Virus record (IMG/VR): IMGVR_UViG_3300010885_010253
Span: 1 to 31,501 of that record
Reading direction: 5' to 3' (one strand)
DNA from: a virus
DNA: 31,501 nucleotides
Position numbers and translations under genes: made by a program. The notes beneath the pieces were generated by a model. The model had not been told where the DNA came from and did no database searches. It worked only from the letters and a program-made list of their open reading frames with translations. This document shows positions 347 to 31,501 of this stretch, in pieces (the stretch's first letter is position 1; each line of letters begins with the position of its first letter).

Positions 347-1588
347 TTACACACTCTCATTCTGTCGGACTAGTCCGACAACTAGTTTATCTATACGGGC
401 TGATAGTTCTGGATACAACGCTTCATTCTGGAATACATACCACATTAAGTTGTCTGCACTAAGTGCGCCTTCACGCACATCTTGAACAGTAAGGGTTCGG
501 GTGTACTCAACACTGGCATGCGCTAAGTCTATCTGGGCTTTAATCGTGTCACCATTAACGCTACCTCGGAAGATACGCATCTCTAGTGTCTCTCTGTTAT
601 TGGTATTGACTGCTGAATAGCGGTCACTATTGTAATCTGTACTTAACTTGTGCTTGAACTGTCGTGTGGTAACAAGTTCGTACCCTGAATCCTCACTCCA
701 TAAACGCTCACCATTGCTATCACGCTTGTAATCATTGCGATAGATGTCTGTGAACTTAGCCCATTGGTCGGAGGTACGACCAGCAAGCGTTGAATAGAAC
801 TCGGGATTGGAATACACAAGGTTGAGGAAACGGTGCATGTGCGCACCACCATTGAAGCCTGTGCGTGAGATGTGAATGTGCAAGCCACATGTCTTGGTAT
901 CCCATGACTTGACTCTGTATGCACTATTGCTACGCAACTGTTCTATCACACTCCATAACTCCTGTGCCTCATTCTTAAAGAACTCATGAGACATTGGGTG
1001 TGTGACTATCTCGAAGCCACTATTAAGCGAGCCGTCATGCTTAAGATAGGCTAGGTCTAACCCTTCTAGTTGGTGTGCATAGTGGGCAGACTCACGCAGA
1101 TTGTGACCTGCTTCTACCTCTATCTCTAGACCAAAGAACAAGCGTTCATTCTTGTCTACACTATGGAAGATAGCATCAGGGCGGTAACTGTAATCATGGA
1201 TTACACGACCACCCTCATCATCTGAGCAACTGTCGCAACCATCACTGTTCCATTCATCACATGAGTCACACCAGTAGGCATCATTGAGGCACATCTCGCA
1301 CCAATGTTCCTGTCGGTCTGTCACATAGGAAGTGCCATATGAGTTGTATTCCTCACATGACTCGCACCAATAAGCACGATTCTCTGTACATGACTCACAC
1401 CATGTATCACCATCAACCACATGAAAGTCGTCATTGGTAGAGCCTATGTTGTCACATCTATAACATGTTTGTACGCACTCGCTACATACAATGTCGTCAT
1501 AGATAGTTGTAATTGAATTATCAGCCTCAATGTTGGTACTACACACCACACATTCGACCTGACCATCAACTGCATCTGTCATTGTCAT
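347..1588 (-). CDS. Amidoligase-family (COOH-NH2 ligase) protein with N-terminal zinc ribbons
   Basis: A 413-residue protein in two parts. Residues 13-121 hold eight CxxC pairs (13/16, 35/38, 42/45, 64/67, 75/78, 97/100, 107/110, 118/121), enough for about four zinc sites in LIM/zinc-ribbon style. Residues about 150-345 carry the signature of the Amidoligase_2 family (glutamine-synthetase/ATP-grasp-like ligases): FFGLEIEVE (151-159), KHDGSL (183-188), GFEIVTHPMS (191-200), CGLHIHIS (234-241) and ETLEMRIFRGS (333-343). Such enzymes use ATP to form amide bonds on carboxyl groups; the substrate here is unknown. The downstream glutaminase could supply ammonia. ATG 1588 (AGGA, 5 nt spacing) and ATG 1582 (AAGG, 7 nt spacing) are both possible starts. 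1582 would place the upstream palindrome at the same 15-17 nt distance seen in three other genes. The last 10 codons overlap another copy of the palindrome. Confidence 0.85.
   Translation of the reverse strand: MTMTDAVDGQVECVVCSTNIEADNSITTIYDDIVCSECVQTCYRCDNIGSTNDDFHVVDGDTWCESCTENRAYWCESCEEYNSYGTSYVTDRQEHWCEMCLNDAYWCDSCDEWNSDGCDSCSDDEGGRVIHDYSYRPDAIFHSVDKNERLFFGLEIEVEAGHNLRESAHYAHQLEGLDLAYLKHDGSLNSGFEIVTHPMSHEFFKNEAQELWSVIEQLRSNSAYRVKSWDTKTCGLHIHISRTGFNGGAHMHRFLNLVYSNPEFYSTLAGRTSDQWAKFTDIYRNDYKRDSNGERLWSEDSGYELVTTRQFKHKLSTDYNSDRYSAVNTNNRETLEMRIFRGSVNGDTIKAQIDLAHASVEYTRTLTVQDVREGALSADNLMWYVFQNEALYPELSARIDKLVVGLVRQNESV
363..380. repeat. CGGACTAGTCCG palindrome, copy 1
   Basis: Perfect 18-bp palindrome TGTCGGACTAGTCCGACA. 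It lies inside the 3' end of the amidoligase coding region (encoding VGLVRQ) and ends 17 nt before the glutamine amidotransferase start at 345. In RNA it would form a 7-bp stem with a CUAG loop. Identical to copies 3 and 4. Confidence 0.9.
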
Positions 1589-1597
1589 ACCTTTCCT

Positions 1598-1613
1598 GAC
1601 GGACTAGTCCGTC
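1598..1613. repeat. CGGACTAGTCCG palindrome, copy 2 (compensated variant)
   Basis: Perfect 16-bp palindrome GACGGACTAGTCCGTC. Compared with copies 1, 3 and 4 one base differs in each arm, and the two changes compensate, so dyad symmetry is kept. It sits in the leader of the amidoligase gene, 9 nt before ATG 1588 or 15 nt before ATG 1582. Confidence 0.88.
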
Positions 1614-1644
1614 GCTACAACTCATTGCGCTTTGCAATAAGATA

Positions 1645-1673
1645 ATCATACTATACGGATAACTTACTGTCAA
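1645..1673 (-). promoter_or_regulatory. Leftward sigma70-type promoter for the amidoligase-amidotransferase pair
   Basis: Read leftward: TTGACA at 1673-1668, a 17-bp spacer, TATGAT at 1650-1645. This is close to the consensus. It lies in the 3' end of the 55-residue gene and would start transcription near 1638. The leader then holds a small hairpin (ATTGC-gcttt-GCAAT on the plus strand, about 1624-1638), palindrome copy 2 and the amidoligase ribosome site. Confidence 0.8.
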
Positions 1674-1818
1674 TCATGGCATCATTCATGTGAGAACGAA
1701 TGTCTTGGATTTGTGCAACCAGCGCCTTGAAATCATTACGCTTGTGCGCTTCTTCCTGCAATCGTAAAGCACCCATGACGGCACTCCACTCCGTTTCAGT
1801 GAACTCAACCTTAATCAT
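1651..1818 (-). CDS. Small helical protein, 55 aa, unknown
   Basis: Starts MIKVEFTETEW and ends IDSKLSV. It is rich in charged and helix-forming residues (LRLQEEAHKRNDFKALVAQ) and has no membrane segment or cysteine, so a short helical or coiled-coil protein is likely. Its ATG overlaps the stop of the upstream 61-residue gene (ATGA), typical of translational coupling. The promoter for the next gene lies in its last codons. Function not recognised. Confidence 0.6.
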   Translation of the reverse strand: MIKVEFTETEWSAVMGALRLQEEAHKRNDFKALVAQIQDIRSHMNDAMIDSKLSV

Positions 1819-2000
1819 TGCTGATAAGCCATAACTGTCTCGAATACGGCATCATCTAACTGGGAGACAAGTTCTGCCCATTCATCTTTTGACAACCCAT
1901 GCCCAAGAATTTCTTGAACAAGGTCGTAATCAAGGCGCGACTCCCATAAATTTGTGTCGGCGATACCGTTCGCCACTAATTCATCTGCTGTTGGGTACAT
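1815..2000 (-). CDS. Small acidic protein, 61 aa, unknown
   Basis: Starts MYPTADELVANG and ends VMAYQQ; acidic and probably helical. The upstream in-frame GTG at 2009 is less likely than ATG 2000, because GAGGGG lies 8 nt before the ATG. The gene starts two bases after the 49-residue gene ends and overlaps the next gene by four bases, so the three form one small leftward operon. No known domain seen. Confidence 0.65.
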   Translation of the reverse strand: MYPTADELVANGIADTNLWESRLDYDLVQEILGHGLSKDEWAELVSQLDDAVFETVMAYQQ

Positions 2001-2002
2001 GA

Positions 2003-2152
2003 TTACCACCCCTCGCGGATACGCTTAGCAAGGCGAAGCACTACAACAGCGACAATAGCAATCATCCATGTACGGTGATTTAGGTACACATCACCGAAGT
2101 AACTTTCAATGTTGATACTCCACTTACTTACTTCTAGGTTGAACAGTTCCAT
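2003..2152 (-). CDS. Small single-pass membrane protein, 49 aa
   Basis: Starts MELFNLEVSKW and ends KRIREGW. A hydrophobic stretch (WMIAIVAVVVLRLA, about residues 29-42) followed by KRIRE suggests one membrane segment with a positive cytoplasmic tail. AAAGG precedes the ATG at suitable spacing. First gene after the structured leader at 2188-2297 and palindrome copy 3 (17 nt before the start), so its expression is the most likely target of those elements. Function unknown; small phage membrane proteins of this type often affect the host envelope or superinfection, but nothing here shows that. Confidence 0.6.
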   Translation of the reverse strand: MELFNLEVSKWSINIESYFGDVYLNHRTWMIAIVAVVVLRLAKRIREGW

Positions 2153-2169
2153 TTACTTACCTTTCATAC

Positions 2170-2187
2170 TGTCGGACTAGTCCGACA
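2170..2187. repeat. CGGACTAGTCCG palindrome, copy 3
   Basis: Perfect 18-bp palindrome identical to copies 1 and 4, 17 nt before the start of the 49-residue gene. It directly abuts a second, unrelated palindrome at 2188-2206. Confidence 0.9.
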
Positions 2188-2206
2188 TGATAACAATTTG
2201 TTATCA
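2188..2206. repeat. 19-bp odd palindrome abutting copy 3
   Basis: TGATAACAATTTGTTATCA: two perfect 9-base arms around one central T. No base separates it from the 18-bp palindrome at 2170-2187. It could be a protein operator or an RNA hairpin in the leader of the small-gene operon. Confidence 0.8.
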
Positions 2207-2297
2207 CGCGCTCACCGCTGGACTTGCACCAGCGTTACTGCCTATCGTGAGCCACCAGCCTACGCCTGCCCAAATTCAGGGTAGGCTATCCGCTAAG
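2207..2297 (-). ncRNA. Probable structured leader RNA or small RNA (two nested hairpins)
   Basis: No gene fits this stretch. It begins where the promoter at 2304-2332 should start transcription. Hairpin A pairs 2257-2263 (AGCCTAC) with 2281-2287 (GTAGGCT) and, after a one-base bulge, CCTG 2265-2268 with CAGG 2277-2280. Hairpin B pairs GCTCAC 2210-2215 with GTGAGC 2247-2252 and CGCTGG 2216-2221 with CCAGCG 2229-2234 around a 7-nt loop, leaving a 12-nt one-sided bulge. Read leftward, GCTGGTG occurs twice, so CCAGC could pair with either copy; this is a possible switch. Hairpin B looks like a tRNA T-arm stacked on an acceptor stem, but there are no D or anticodon arms. A riboswitch, regulatory leader or independent small RNA are all possible; I cannot name a family. 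Confidence 0.55.
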
Positions 2298-2303
2298 GTC
2301 TTA

Positions 2304-2332
2304 ATTCTAGCATGGGGAAATGATTGGGTCAA
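2304..2332 (-). promoter_or_regulatory. Leftward sigma70-type promoter for the structured leader and small-gene operon
   Basis: Read leftward: TTGACC at 2332-2327, a 17-bp spacer, TAGAAT at 2309-2304. The -35 box overlaps the stop codon of the 43-residue gene. The predicted start near 2297 places hairpin A at the very 5' end of the transcript. Confidence 0.78.
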
Positions 2333-2460
2333 ATACGAGCAACAGTATCAGCCTCTCGTATAGCCTTTACTCCGCGCTCATACCTCTCCTGCTCTGCTCG
2401 CTTCTCGTTCAGAATGTTAGTCTGCACTTCGAGATGAGCGACTAATTCATTTAGGTTCAT
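2329..2460 (-). CDS. Small coiled-coil-like protein, 43 aa
   Basis: Starts MNLNELVAHLEVQ and ends EADTVARI. Dense in Glu, Arg, Lys and Leu, as expected for a short helix. It has its own promoter (2535-2563), a leader with palindrome copy 4 (15 nt before the ATG) and a weak GTGAG ribosome site. The consistent upstream architecture is the main reason to accept so short a gene. Function unknown. Confidence 0.55.
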   Translation of the reverse strand: MNLNELVAHLEVQTNILNEKRAEQERYERGVKAIREADTVARI

Positions 2461-2475
2461 TTGATACTCACTCTC

Positions 2476-2493
2476 TGTCGGACTAGTCCGACA
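2476..2493. repeat. CGGACTAGTCCG palindrome, copy 4
   Basis: Perfect 18-bp palindrome identical to copies 1 and 3. It lies in the transcribed leader of the 43-residue gene, 15 nt before its start codon. Confidence 0.9.
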
Positions 2494-2534
2494 CTATGGT
2501 TTATCAACAAGCGGAAGTGCCTGCCAATACCTTA

Positions 2535-2563
2535 ATTATAGGGCATGGAAACTAATGGGTCAA
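2535..2563 (-). promoter_or_regulatory. Leftward sigma70-type promoter for the 43-residue gene
   Basis: Read leftward: TTGACC at 2563-2558, a 17-bp spacer, a perfect TATAAT at 2540-2535. Palindrome copy 5 lies four bases upstream of the -35 box. The -35 and -10 surroundings resemble the promoter at 2304-2332, suggesting duplication. Confidence 0.85.
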
Positions 2564-2566
2564 GCC

Positions 2567-2583
2567 TGTCGGACTAGTCCGTC
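2567..2583. repeat. CGGACTAGTCCG palindrome, copy 5 (imperfect)
   Basis: TGTCGGACTAGTCCGTC: the 12-bp core is perfect, but the left arm is of the copy-1 type and the right arm of the copy-2 type, so outer symmetry is broken. It lies outside the predicted transcripts, centred 38 bp upstream of the centre of a -10 box, the same offset as copy 6. A lone half-site GTCCGAC follows at about 2603. Confidence 0.85.
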
Positions 2584-2620
2584 GGGCTGCAAATCAAATG
2601 GCGTCCGACCGCGAATAAAA

Positions 2621-2676
2621 GTTTGTGTTGGTTTGTGTTGGAAAATTTTCTCAGGATTTTCTCAGGAAACTCTCAG
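2621..2676. repeat. GTTTGTGTTG tandem pair plus CTCAGGA repeats
   Basis: GTTTGTGTTG occurs twice in tandem (2621-2640). It is followed by TTCTCAGGA (2648-2656) and TTCTCAGGAAACTCTCAG (2659-2676). The same elements recur on the far side of the 202-residue gene (3493-3693, with TTTGTGTTG at about 3559), so that gene is flanked by related repeat blocks. They may be iteron-like binding sites. The rest of the gap 2494-2746 holds a promoter, palindrome copy 5 and a terminator. Confidence 0.7.
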
Positions 2677-2700
2677 CAAAGCTTTGCAGATTTTGGGCAG

Positions 2701-2748
2701 AAAAAAAGCCCGACCCTCTCGGGCCGAGCCTTTTTCCTTGTCGGGCTT
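2701..2748 (-). terminator. Intrinsic terminator after the 202-residue gene
   Basis: Read leftward, AAGCCCGAC (plus-strand 2740-2748) pairs with GTCGGGCTT (2706-2714) and runs into seven T residues (2707-2701). The stem begins at the stop codon of the 202-residue gene. A smaller hairpin (GCCCGA/TCGGGC, 2708-2724) can also form inside. Confidence 0.88.
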
Positions 2749-3355
2749 AGATTAGTTGGAGAGTTTTGGCCTCGATTACGGTATAAATCTCGGTGACCAA
2801 ATCGGCCTCAGCCTCGGTGATTGCCTGAAAATCTAGTGCCTCGACGAAGGCAAGGATAGATTTCAAGGTATCGGCTGGCGTTGCTTTTGCTTTCGCTGGC
2901 TTGTCTGCTTTTGGTGCTGATGCCTTAGAATTGCGTAGTGCTTTTTCAGCCTTAGTTGCTTTCGCGATTGCCTCCCATGAGCCTAGCTTTTCAGCGTTGC
3001 CAGCGCCGAGCATTTTATAGGCTGCGGTTGCGCGGGCTAGTTGCTTGTCTAGTGGCATAGCCTTAAAATCGGCATGAGTTTCGCGGAGGTTTTTCCATGT
3101 AGGCAAACCCTCGACATGGGAGATAAGGAGAATTCCTGATGTCTTTCCTGTTGCCTTGATGACCTTTTGCTTGTCCTTGATTGAGAGGTTCGAGGCAACG
3201 AGTTCAGAGACCAGAGAGAGAATCGAGTCCGCGATTTTTGACTCTGCTGAATCTGATGCCTTGCATGCGCTTATCCATGCGTTAGCGATTTTTGGTGCTG
3301 ATACGACTACTGCTGAATTCTTAGTGCCCTGTACTGCTTTTTTTGATGTTGTCAT
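2747..3355 (-). CDS. Lys/Ala-rich protein, 202 aa, unknown, possible DNA-binding or origin-associated protein
   Basis: Family not recognised. A helical N-terminal two thirds (residues about 20-140) contains DSILSLVSELVASNLSIKDK and a Trp-rich stretch near residue 86. A low-complexity basic linker of Lys, Ala and Pro follows (about 145-165), then an acidic helical C-terminus ending IEAKTLQLI. Basic Ala/Lys/Pro linkers are common in nucleic-acid-binding proteins; that is inference. The gene has its own promoter (3408-3435), a leader hairpin (3373-3403) and its own terminator, so it is an independent unit. Palindromes and CTCAGGAA repeats lie on both sides and the DnaA-box cluster lies immediately upstream. 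It is therefore a candidate for binding these repeats in replication or early control. AAAAGGA precedes the start. Confidence 0.75.
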   Translation of the reverse strand: MTTSKKAVQGTKNSAVVVSAPKIANAWISACKASDSAESKIADSILSLVSELVASNLSIKDKQKVIKATGKTSGILLISHVEGLPTWKNLRETHADFKAMPLDKQLARATAAYKMLGAGNAEKLGSWEAIAKATKAEKALRNSKASAPKADKPAKAKATPADTLKSILAFVEALDFQAITEAEADLVTEIYTVIEAKTLQLI

Positions 3356-3372
3356 TTGGGATTTTTCCTTTT

Positions 3373-3403
3373 CTATGAGGGAGACGTTCGCTCGTTCTCA
3401 TAG
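3373..3403 (-). promoter_or_regulatory. Leader hairpin at the 5' end of the 202-residue gene's transcript
   Basis: CTATGAG (3373-3379) and CTCATAG (3397-3403) are perfect 7-base inverted repeats around a 17-nt loop. The promoter at 3408-3435 should start transcription near 3401, so this stem would cap the mRNA 5' end, ahead of the AAAAGGA ribosome site. It may stabilise the message or modulate translation. Confidence 0.55.
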
Positions 3404-3407
3404 GAAA

Positions 3408-3435
3408 ATTCTAGCATAGTAAAACGATTTGGCAC
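3408..3435 (-). promoter_or_regulatory. Leftward promoter for the 202-residue gene
   Basis: Read leftward: GTGCCA at 3435-3430 (weak -35), a 16-bp spacer, TAGAAT at 3413-3408. Palindrome copy 6 lies five bases upstream of the -35. A weak -35 with a palindrome next to it is what an activator-dependent promoter would look like. Confidence 0.65.
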
Positions 3436-3440
3436 ACCAT

Positions 3441-3456
3441 GTCGGACTAGTCCGAC
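3441..3456. repeat. CGGACTAGTCCG palindrome, copy 6
   Basis: Perfect 16-bp palindrome GTCGGACTAGTCCGAC. Its centre is 38 bp upstream of the centre of the -10 box of the 202-residue gene's promoter, exactly the offset seen for copy 5. Confidence 0.88.
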
Positions 3457-3492
3457 GGCATGAGTCTCGTGTCGATTTATCGACATTTCCAA

Positions 3493-3693
3493 TTCTCAGG
3501 AAACTCTCAGTTTCCACCCTGGGTCAGCCTCTCAGACAATTCTCAGGAAACTCTAAGGTTTGTGTTGAAAGTTATCCACAGGTTTATCCACAGGTGTGTA
3601 TAACTTGTGCATAGATTTCCCCCACTTATCCACAGGCTAGGGAGATAGACAGATGCTCAGGAAATCCTCATTTAATTCTCAGGAACTTCTCAG
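3493..3693. other. Candidate replication origin: CTCAGGAA repeats and DnaA boxes
   Basis: TTCTCAGGAAACTCTCAG (3493-3510), TTCTCAGGAAACTCTAAG (3540-3557), GCTCAGGAAATCCTCA (3655-3670) and TTCTCAGGAACTTCTCAG (3676-3693) surround a cluster of DnaA boxes (3572-3634). TTTGTGTTG recurs at about 3559. AT-rich sequence follows from about 3740 to 4040. Direct repeats, DnaA boxes and adjacent AT-rich DNA are the classic parts of a DnaA-assisted origin. No strong gene fits the region. Confidence 0.6.
3572..3634. other. DnaA-box cluster
   Basis: TTATCCACA is present exactly at 3572-3580, 3584-3592 and 3626-3634. TTATACACA is on the minus strand at 3595-3603. A one-mismatch box, CTATGCACA, is on the minus strand at about 3605-3613. 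The bacterial consensus is TTATNCACA, so four of five are exact within 63 bp. This implies binding by the host initiator DnaA. Confidence 0.8.
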
Positions 3694-30905: not shown

Positions 30906-31501
30906 GCGTTCAACAACTATGGGACCAAGCATGGCTTGAGTCCAAAGGTGACATCGACCTAACCAATGCACGTGTTGGTGGTCGTGCCACTAAAGCAAAT
31001 CCTAACAAGGAAGACGTTACCTTCTGGCAAAGCCAAGGACCTAGATGGGTTGAGTCTTACATCGCATGGCGTAAGCAGAACTCTAACTGGAAAATTTGGA
31101 CAGCACCAGATGGCAATCAAGGAATCGAACTTGCCCTAACTCCTGTCGTGGCTGGCGTTCCAGTCAAGATGATTATTGACCGCGTGTTTGAAGTCAACGG
31201 AGAACTGGTAATTGTCGACTTAAAGACATCACAGAACACACCTACTAGCAGTCTACAACTTGGCTTCTACAAACTAGGCCTTGAACAGACTTTCGGCATA
31301 GAGGTAAAGTGGGGAACATATTACATGTCCCGTGGTAGCAACATCTCTGACATGGTAAACCTATCTGAATATACCTACGACAAGATGGAATACCTAATCA
31401 CGCAATTTGACAAGGCGCGTAAGAACGCTATATTCTTACCCAACACAAACAGTTGTCAGTACATGTGTGAACTCACCGAGTACTGCCAATTCTCTATCAA
31501 G
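30902..31501 (+). CDS. Cas4/RecB-like nuclease, catalytic piece, cut by window end
   Basis: Begins in the stop of the previous gene (ATGA) with AAGGAG five bases before, and is open to the window end (200 residues so far). MIIDRVFEVNGELVIVDLKT carries the PD-(D/E)XK catalytic set (Asp of IIDR, then Asp-Leu-Lys), and SLQLGFYKLGL is the following QxxxY-like helix. CQYMCELTEYC near the end gives three Cys that would complete an iron-sulfur site with the Cys in the first piece. Phage enzymes of this family are exonucleases in replication or recombination. Together the two proteins match one full-length relative. Confidence 0.82.
   Translation, partial: MSVQQLWDQAWLESKGDIDLTNARVGGRATKANPNKEDVTFWQSQGPRWVESYIAWRKQNSNWKIWTAPDGNQGIELALTPVVAGVPVKMIIDRVFEVNGELVIVDLKTSQNTPTSSLQLGFYKLGLEQTFGIEVKWGTYYMSRGSNISDMVNLSEYTYDKMEYLITQFDKARKNAIFLPNTNSCQYMCELTEYCQFSIK

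Follow-up and report, generated by a model that had tools for sequence, protein, structure and literature searches.

Palindromic repeats in the leftward arm of an IMG/VR phage as probable operators of a linked phage-encoded regulator

The repressors of temperate cluster A mycobacteriophages, among them L5 (Gp71), Bxb1 and TipsytheTRex, bind as monomers to operators and stoperators, asymmetric sites of 13–14 bp of which 20–30 occur in each genome (PMC6550527, PMC9283540). In cluster K mycobacteriophages, the asymmetric start-associated sequence (SAS, GGGATAGGAGCCC) lies immediately upstream of gene starts, and the extended SAS (ESAS) consists of 17-bp imperfect inverted repeats with a variable spacer and a subcluster-specific consensus, the binder of which is not known (PMC3203893). 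Here we analyse a palindrome that recurs in the leftward arm of IMG/VR record IMGVR_UViG_3300010885_010253 (positions 1 to 31,501; 'the window' denotes this whole 31.5 kb stretch), together with a gene of the same arm that encodes a protein of 202 residues (2747–3355, minus strand). An initial annotation had set the palindrome apart from the start-associated repeats of cluster K, and had proposed either that one phage factor binds all copies as DNA operators or that the copies in transcribed leaders act as RNA hairpins that gate translation. The distinction from cluster K stands, the window motif not matching the SAS consensus.

Our comparisons strongly support the action of one phage factor on all copies as DNA operators, the candidate being the product of 2747–3355. 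At a probability of about 0.62, we consider that the palindromes are DNA operators of this phage-encoded, probably dimeric regulator, which most likely represses the leftward arm. Physical binding, dimerisation, repression and roadblocking by the regulator are read from patterns of sequence conservation and exchange among related phages.

Palindromes of the window and its relatives

The 12-mer CGGACTAGTCCG occurs exactly six times in the window, starting at 366, 1600, 2173, 2479, 2570 and 3443, and no further match with up to two mismatches was found in the 31.5 kb. Dinucleotide-shuffled sequences gave a mean of 0.38 matches at the same tolerance and never reached six, which rules out chance or composition as the source of the copies. 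All six lie within 363–3456, in or beside leftward genes and ahead of the rightward terminase gene (4092), so that count and shuffles together confirm the six copies, confined to the leftward arm, of the initial annotation. From right to left we refer to them as operators A (3441–3456), B (2567–2584), C (2476–2493), D (2170–2187), E (1598–1613) and F (363–380). The palindromes reach 16–18 bp, reading TGTCGGACTAGTCCGACA at 363, 2170 and 2476, GACGGACTAGTCCGTC at 1598 and GTCGGACTAGTCCGAC at 3441, while the copy at 2567 is asymmetric in its outer arm. No known RNA family or tRNA was found.

Four copies end 15–17 nt before minus-strand ATG codons at 345, 1582, 2152 and 2460, and the other two, at 2570 and 3443, each have their centre 38 bp upstream of that of a -10 element (2540–2535 and 3413–3408). 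Read from the sequence, both sets of distances are as first described, and the compensating paired change reported for the copy at 1598 (T..A to A..T) is real. A further contig, L007 (7293 bp), shares 83 bp with the window at its right end (31419–31501, 98.8%) and adds approximately 7.2 kb, in which a seventh palindrome copy lies within the next block of leftward genes.

The nearest annotated relatives are OX376640 and OX376641 (terminase 76% identical), which are the lytic 'Ca. Planktophila' isolates LanE43AprE7 and AprF5; phages of this group encode a sigma-70-like factor and WhiB (PMC10202952). Because these nearest relatives are 'Ca. Planktophila' phages, we infer that the window belongs to a phage of Nanopelagicales-type freshwater actinobacteria. 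IMG/VR holds at least several hundred terminase relatives, and most records are metagenomic fragments. Integrase, recombinase and ParA domains (PF00589, PF00239, PF13614) are absent from 13 records, several of them near full length, and the search for lysogeny genes found no HTH_3 repressor; relatives of the regulator or the terminase were not found in GTDB host genomes, which thus offer no evidence of prophages.

The exact 12-mer is rare in databases, an exact search of IMG/VR returning three contigs: L006, a close relative of the window; L007, its continuation; and L005, which was set aside since its single isolated copy, without similarity to the window, is compatible with chance. A search of related phages had been proposed initially, and there the sequence itself did not persist but its placement did, different palindromes occupying the same sites. 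Scanning relatives for palindromes upstream of terminase yielded TCGGGYTARCCCGA, TTCGGYTARCCGAA, ACGGGTTAACCCGT and TCCGTTTAAACGGA at the same offsets, and at loci with remote homologues of the regulator these sites are taken by operators with odd centres, GCCGTATAATACGGC, GTATGATWATCATAC and GCTATATAATATAGC. The total is eight operator types at 48 loci, with about 300 copies, those within one genome being nearly identical; the types were assigned by us from these data, and the sampling of loci is biased to T3. Odd-centred types O1–O3, to which the even-length palindrome scan is blind, were found by homologue-guided search. Each genome has 6–11 sites (7–11 in long records), which in near-full-length records occur in the leftward arm only.

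An operator type was assigned at 45 of the 48 regulator loci; none was seen at L054, L143 and L151, the last two of which end within or just after the regulator gene. Among approximately 20 relatives in which tblastn detected no regulator, carriers of a remote homologue have odd-centred arrays, and arrays are lacking where any homologue is absent, except in L069 and L079. L069 has about 11 CTTAAG-centred palindromes (for example ATGTCTTAAGACTT) in its left arm at similar positions, and L079 and L085 have copies related to these; no regulator homologue is detectable in these three, and the palindromes perhaps belong to a second, unrelated regulator. Separately, a LexA-box-like palindrome, CGAACANNTGTTCG, stands at one intergenic position approximately 120–330 bp upstream of the regulator gene in L054, L127, L057, L029, L047, L139–L146, L148–L151 and others, that is, in phages with O2 or O3 regulators and some with O1, T2, T4 or T5 regulators; it does not occur in T1 or T3 phages or in the window. 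Its recurrence suggests SOS control of the locus.

Co-variation of operator and regulator

The regulator has no match in Pfam, PHROG, NCBIfam, PADLOC, PDB (sequence and fold) or BFVD, and by these searches its family is new; tblastn against INPHARED gave no match either, Foldseek with two regulator models returned nothing significant, and our searches of the open literature located no prior description of the system. The structure model is all-helical, with a predicted helix-turn-helix (HTH) at residues ~59–93 formed by a helix pair at 59–69 and 78–93. An alignment-based scan identified 32 regulator loci, all with palindromes, to which a profile search added remote homologues at the same locus (hhalign probabilities of 96.9% and 94.7%).

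Copies in one genome share their sequence while relatives swap the palindrome at the same positions, which argues for a pairing of operator and regulator. L006, with the same palindrome as the window, has a regulator 95% identical over the N-terminal 84 residues available; L013, with another palindrome, has a terminase 99% identical and a regulator 48% identical. The terminases of the window, L108 and L148 are 98.6–99% identical, yet these phages carry three different regulator–operator pairs, which supports the same pairing. We compared regulator, terminase, glutamine amidotransferase, amidoligase and WhiB across the typed loci for their capacity to separate pairs with the same operator from pairs with different operators, and the area under the curve (AUC) was 0.99, 0.95, 0.88, 0.80 and 0.71 respectively.

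Regulator identity predicts operator type also when terminase is controlled for, and this too argues for the pairing: in partial Mantel tests on 37 dereplicated loci, the correlation of operator with regulator given terminase was 0.875 (p=0.0005), against -0.125 for operator with terminase given regulator. Within the T1–T5 clade the former was 0.635 (p=0.0005), with a terminase residual of 0.329. Operator type changes seven times on the regulator tree, which is the minimum for eight types, versus 12 times on the terminase tree, both trees having been made by a quick method and having long branches.

Two exceptional cases point to the same pairing. The regulator of L137 is just 37–43% identical to those of its operator-mates, but agrees with them at residues 47–87, in the predicted HTH. 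In the recombinant arms of L037/L150, a foreign regulator has come with its own operators: O3 sites, matching that regulator, occupy A, B, C, F and G; the T2 type is seen at one distal site and at D and E, which have kept the old type.

Site placement, mechanism and competing explanations

An ATG-started open reading frame (ORF) begins 5–30 nt downstream of 169 of 301 copies (56%), compared with 15% of random positions and 3% when the opposite strand is taken, so that in relatives, as the initial annotation would have it, the copies are tied to gene starts and promoters and stay within the leftward arm. Across phages, A precedes the regulator gene, B precedes a near-consensus promoter, and C, D and E are leader sites; F falls in the last amidoligase codons, G near the end of the amidotransferase gene and, in most phages, H about 59 nt inside a gene of ~130 residues. 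A promoter matching at least 9 of 12 consensus positions follows within 70 nt of 64% of B-type copies, versus 8% of random positions and 2% of leader copies, and the B promoter of L077 matches at 12/12. The distance of 38 bp to the -10, correct for the window, is in relatives merely one among several spacings, B operators standing 5–6, 15–16, 21–22 (O2), 24–25 or 35–36 nt from the -35.

In the window, operator A, the exact 12-mer within a 16-bp palindrome, lies upstream of the promoter-like site of the regulator gene (GTGCCA-16-TAGAAT with an extended -10, 3408–3435), and relatives have the same site; all promoters and genes named here are on the minus strand. The regulator gene (2747–3355), whose product is the candidate operator-binding protein on the strength of co-variation and the structure model, is followed by a terminator-like hairpin (2707–2725, minus strand). 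Operator B is followed, after 5 nt, by the -35 of TTGACC-17-TATAAT (11/12; 2535–2563), the next promoter, which separates it from operator C in the leader of a 43-residue gene (2329–2460, ATG 2460); this gene, the putative target of B and C, has a homologue after site C in relatives. A promoter-like TTGACC-17-TAGAAT (2304–2332) lies upstream of operator D, which occupies the leader of its putative target, a 49-residue gene (2003–2152, ATG 2152) that likewise has a homologue in relatives. Downstream of a promoter-like TTGACA-17-TATGAT (1645–1673), operator E is found in the leader of the amidoligase gene (PF12224; 347–1588, ATG 1582), its putative target. The last codons of the amidoligase ORF contain operator F, 17 nt before ATG 345 of a class II glutamine amidotransferase gene (1–345), which runs off the window and is the putative target of F.

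DnaA boxes (TTATCCACA, three exact copies at 3572, 3584 and 3626) and several CTCAGGAAA repeats were noted within positions 2649–3693, and the region between the regulator gene and terminase is a probable replication origin. L047 and L056/L057 have 3–4 ATCCTATAGGAT-like palindromes 360–510 bp upstream of terminase, in the presumed origin region and distinct from the operators.

We propose that a regulator dimer would bind the palindromes through the HTH-like segment at residues ~59–93 and, from A and B upstream of promoters and C–F in downstream, leader and coding positions, would allow one protein to govern expression throughout the leftward arm. Occupied B and C would flank the near-consensus promoter and repress it; C–F, when bound, may act as roadblocks to RNA polymerase before each gene, in the manner of stoperators in mycobacteriophage L5; and the regulator may control its own gene through operator A. 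Repression is preferred on two grounds: the B promoters are near consensus, leaving little need for activation, and the majority of sites follow a promoter, a position from which bound protein can hinder RNA polymerase. The orientation of the operator centre was examined as a signal of roadblock polarity, with counts of 57 CTAA and 27 TTAG in T3 and nearly all TTAG in T2. The distance from B to C is about 90–125 bp in nearly all phages (91, 92–97, 100, 106, 114, 117 and 123), and looping in strict helical phase between these sites is unsupported, the distances being out of phase across types.

Several observations weigh against this explanation. Operator types are separated fairly well by terminase identity too, and part of the uncorrected association is therefore shared descent; the fold has no match in PDB, and the HTH was called from models of moderate confidence (predicted local distance difference test, pLDDT, of 80 and 74). 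Moreover, B operators are placed upstream of the -35 and not over the promoter, and most of their gaps differ by about one helical turn, as would also suit an activator. The same protein could therefore act on the same DNA operators as an activator or dual regulator, activating from A and B, which never overlap the -10 or -35, and tuning or repressing from the leaders. We regard this as rather unlikely: the O2 spacing is out of phase, activation is not expected from C–H, which make up most copies and lie downstream of promoters, and B promoters as close to consensus as those of the window and L077 would not need it.

That the leader copies form hairpins in the RNA (7-bp stem), ahead of the ribosome-binding site, and gate translation alone or with a bound phage protein is quite improbable. 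Such a function would suit the proximity of over half of all copies to start codons, the compensated pair at 1598 and the folding energies of the leaders (-8 to -15 kcal/mol), but any palindrome can fold in this way, and most of these folds are ordinary, failing to surpass roughly the top tenth of shuffled sequences (z about -0.2 to -1.6, with one at -2.9). An RNA hairpin would call for stem pairing better conserved in leaders than elsewhere, and the reverse was found, pair 5 of T3 being broken in 14 of 91 leader copies versus 0 of 52 others. The observation of the initial annotation that the imperfect copy lies outside the leaders is true of the window and fails in relatives, where the recurrent pair-breaking form TTCGGTTAAACGAA is a leader copy at site E. 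Loops vary between CUAA, UUAG and UUAA, and conserved, intact sites sit inside ORFs far from starts, including the H site and a perfect copy that O2 phages have in addition, at nt 608 of the amidotransferase ORF, where it falls within a variable loop whose residues (YDNHT) are absent in other types. DNA is favoured over RNA because the pair-breaking copies are leader copies, because of these intragenic sites, and because the untranscribed A and B copies, upstream of promoters, change in concert with the leader copies.

Two further explanations dispense with this regulation and are the least probable of all. Partition, replication or packaging sites of parS or iteron type would fit an array of perfect palindromes for one phage protein close to DnaA boxes and repeats (3572–3634), but the copies follow promoters and gene starts over approximately 5–6 kb without clustering at the origin, and ParA is missing from the 13 records. 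Alternatively, a host regulator or another phage factor might bind the sites, the 202-residue protein being merely linked; the sigma-70-like factor and WhiB are candidates, but WhiB follows operator type poorly, phages with near-identical terminases and presumably the same hosts differ in their operators, and the agreement of L137 with its operator-mates lies in the predicted HTH of the regulator itself.

Significance and comparison with known systems

An undescribed protein family hereby gains a candidate function and a partner, together with a natural series of specificities. With eight paired regulator and operator types and natural recombinants, a code of protein–DNA recognition becomes directly testable, the two-type arms of L037/L150 being useful for mismatches of regulator and operator. 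A diversified multi-operator regulator in phages without detectable lysogeny genes poses the question of what lytic viruses of the most abundant freshwater bacteria gain from it, with superinfection control as the obvious candidate. As a speculation that we hold to be doubtful, apparently strictly lytic phages of dominant freshwater actinobacteria may carry a lambda-like heteroimmunity of at least eight specificities, based on a new family of DNA-binding proteins, in which a resident phage would shut off the leftward arm of any co-infecting phage that shares its type, and specificities would be exchanged as modules of regulator and operators under frequency-dependent selection.

KorA and KorB of plasmid RK2 are small proteins that act at one palindrome found at many operons of a mobile replicon. 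The present array resembles them in having a single palindrome at many operons, but no sequence relation of its candidate protein to a known family was found, and its operator specificity is strongly diversified. In the gal operon, the operators of GalR flank the promoter, as B and C do here, although the B–C distances are not in helical phase. The absence of a ParA-type ATPase from the 13 records distinguishes the locus from parS/ParB centromeres. SAS and ESAS share with it the placement of repeats shortly before the start codons of many genes, but its sequence differs from SAS, the distance of 15–17 nt leaves the Shine–Dalgarno region in between, and in contrast to both cluster K elements there is one compact palindrome, which occurs at promoters and within ORFs as well and has a candidate protein linked to it.

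The cluster A stoperators, at which the repressor blocks both initiation and elongation, are similar in that a single phage protein of ~180–200 residues serves numerous sites, located at promoters and in short gaps between genes, and in that the repressor has diverged along with its site consensus from one related phage to another, as is seen here. Unlike the asymmetric cluster A sites, which are oriented with transcription, those described here are palindromes of 14–18 bp, probably bound by a dimer, and they number 6–11 in one arm as opposed to 20–30 genome-wide. No relation of the regulator to L5 Gp71 or to the HTH plus Stoperator domain architecture was found in sequence or modelled fold, and lysogeny genes were not found in the 13 records, whereas cluster A phages are temperate, with an integrase or parABS. 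Although it departs from the defining features of the L5 repressor–stoperator system, it is this system that, as judged from sequence, the locus works most like.

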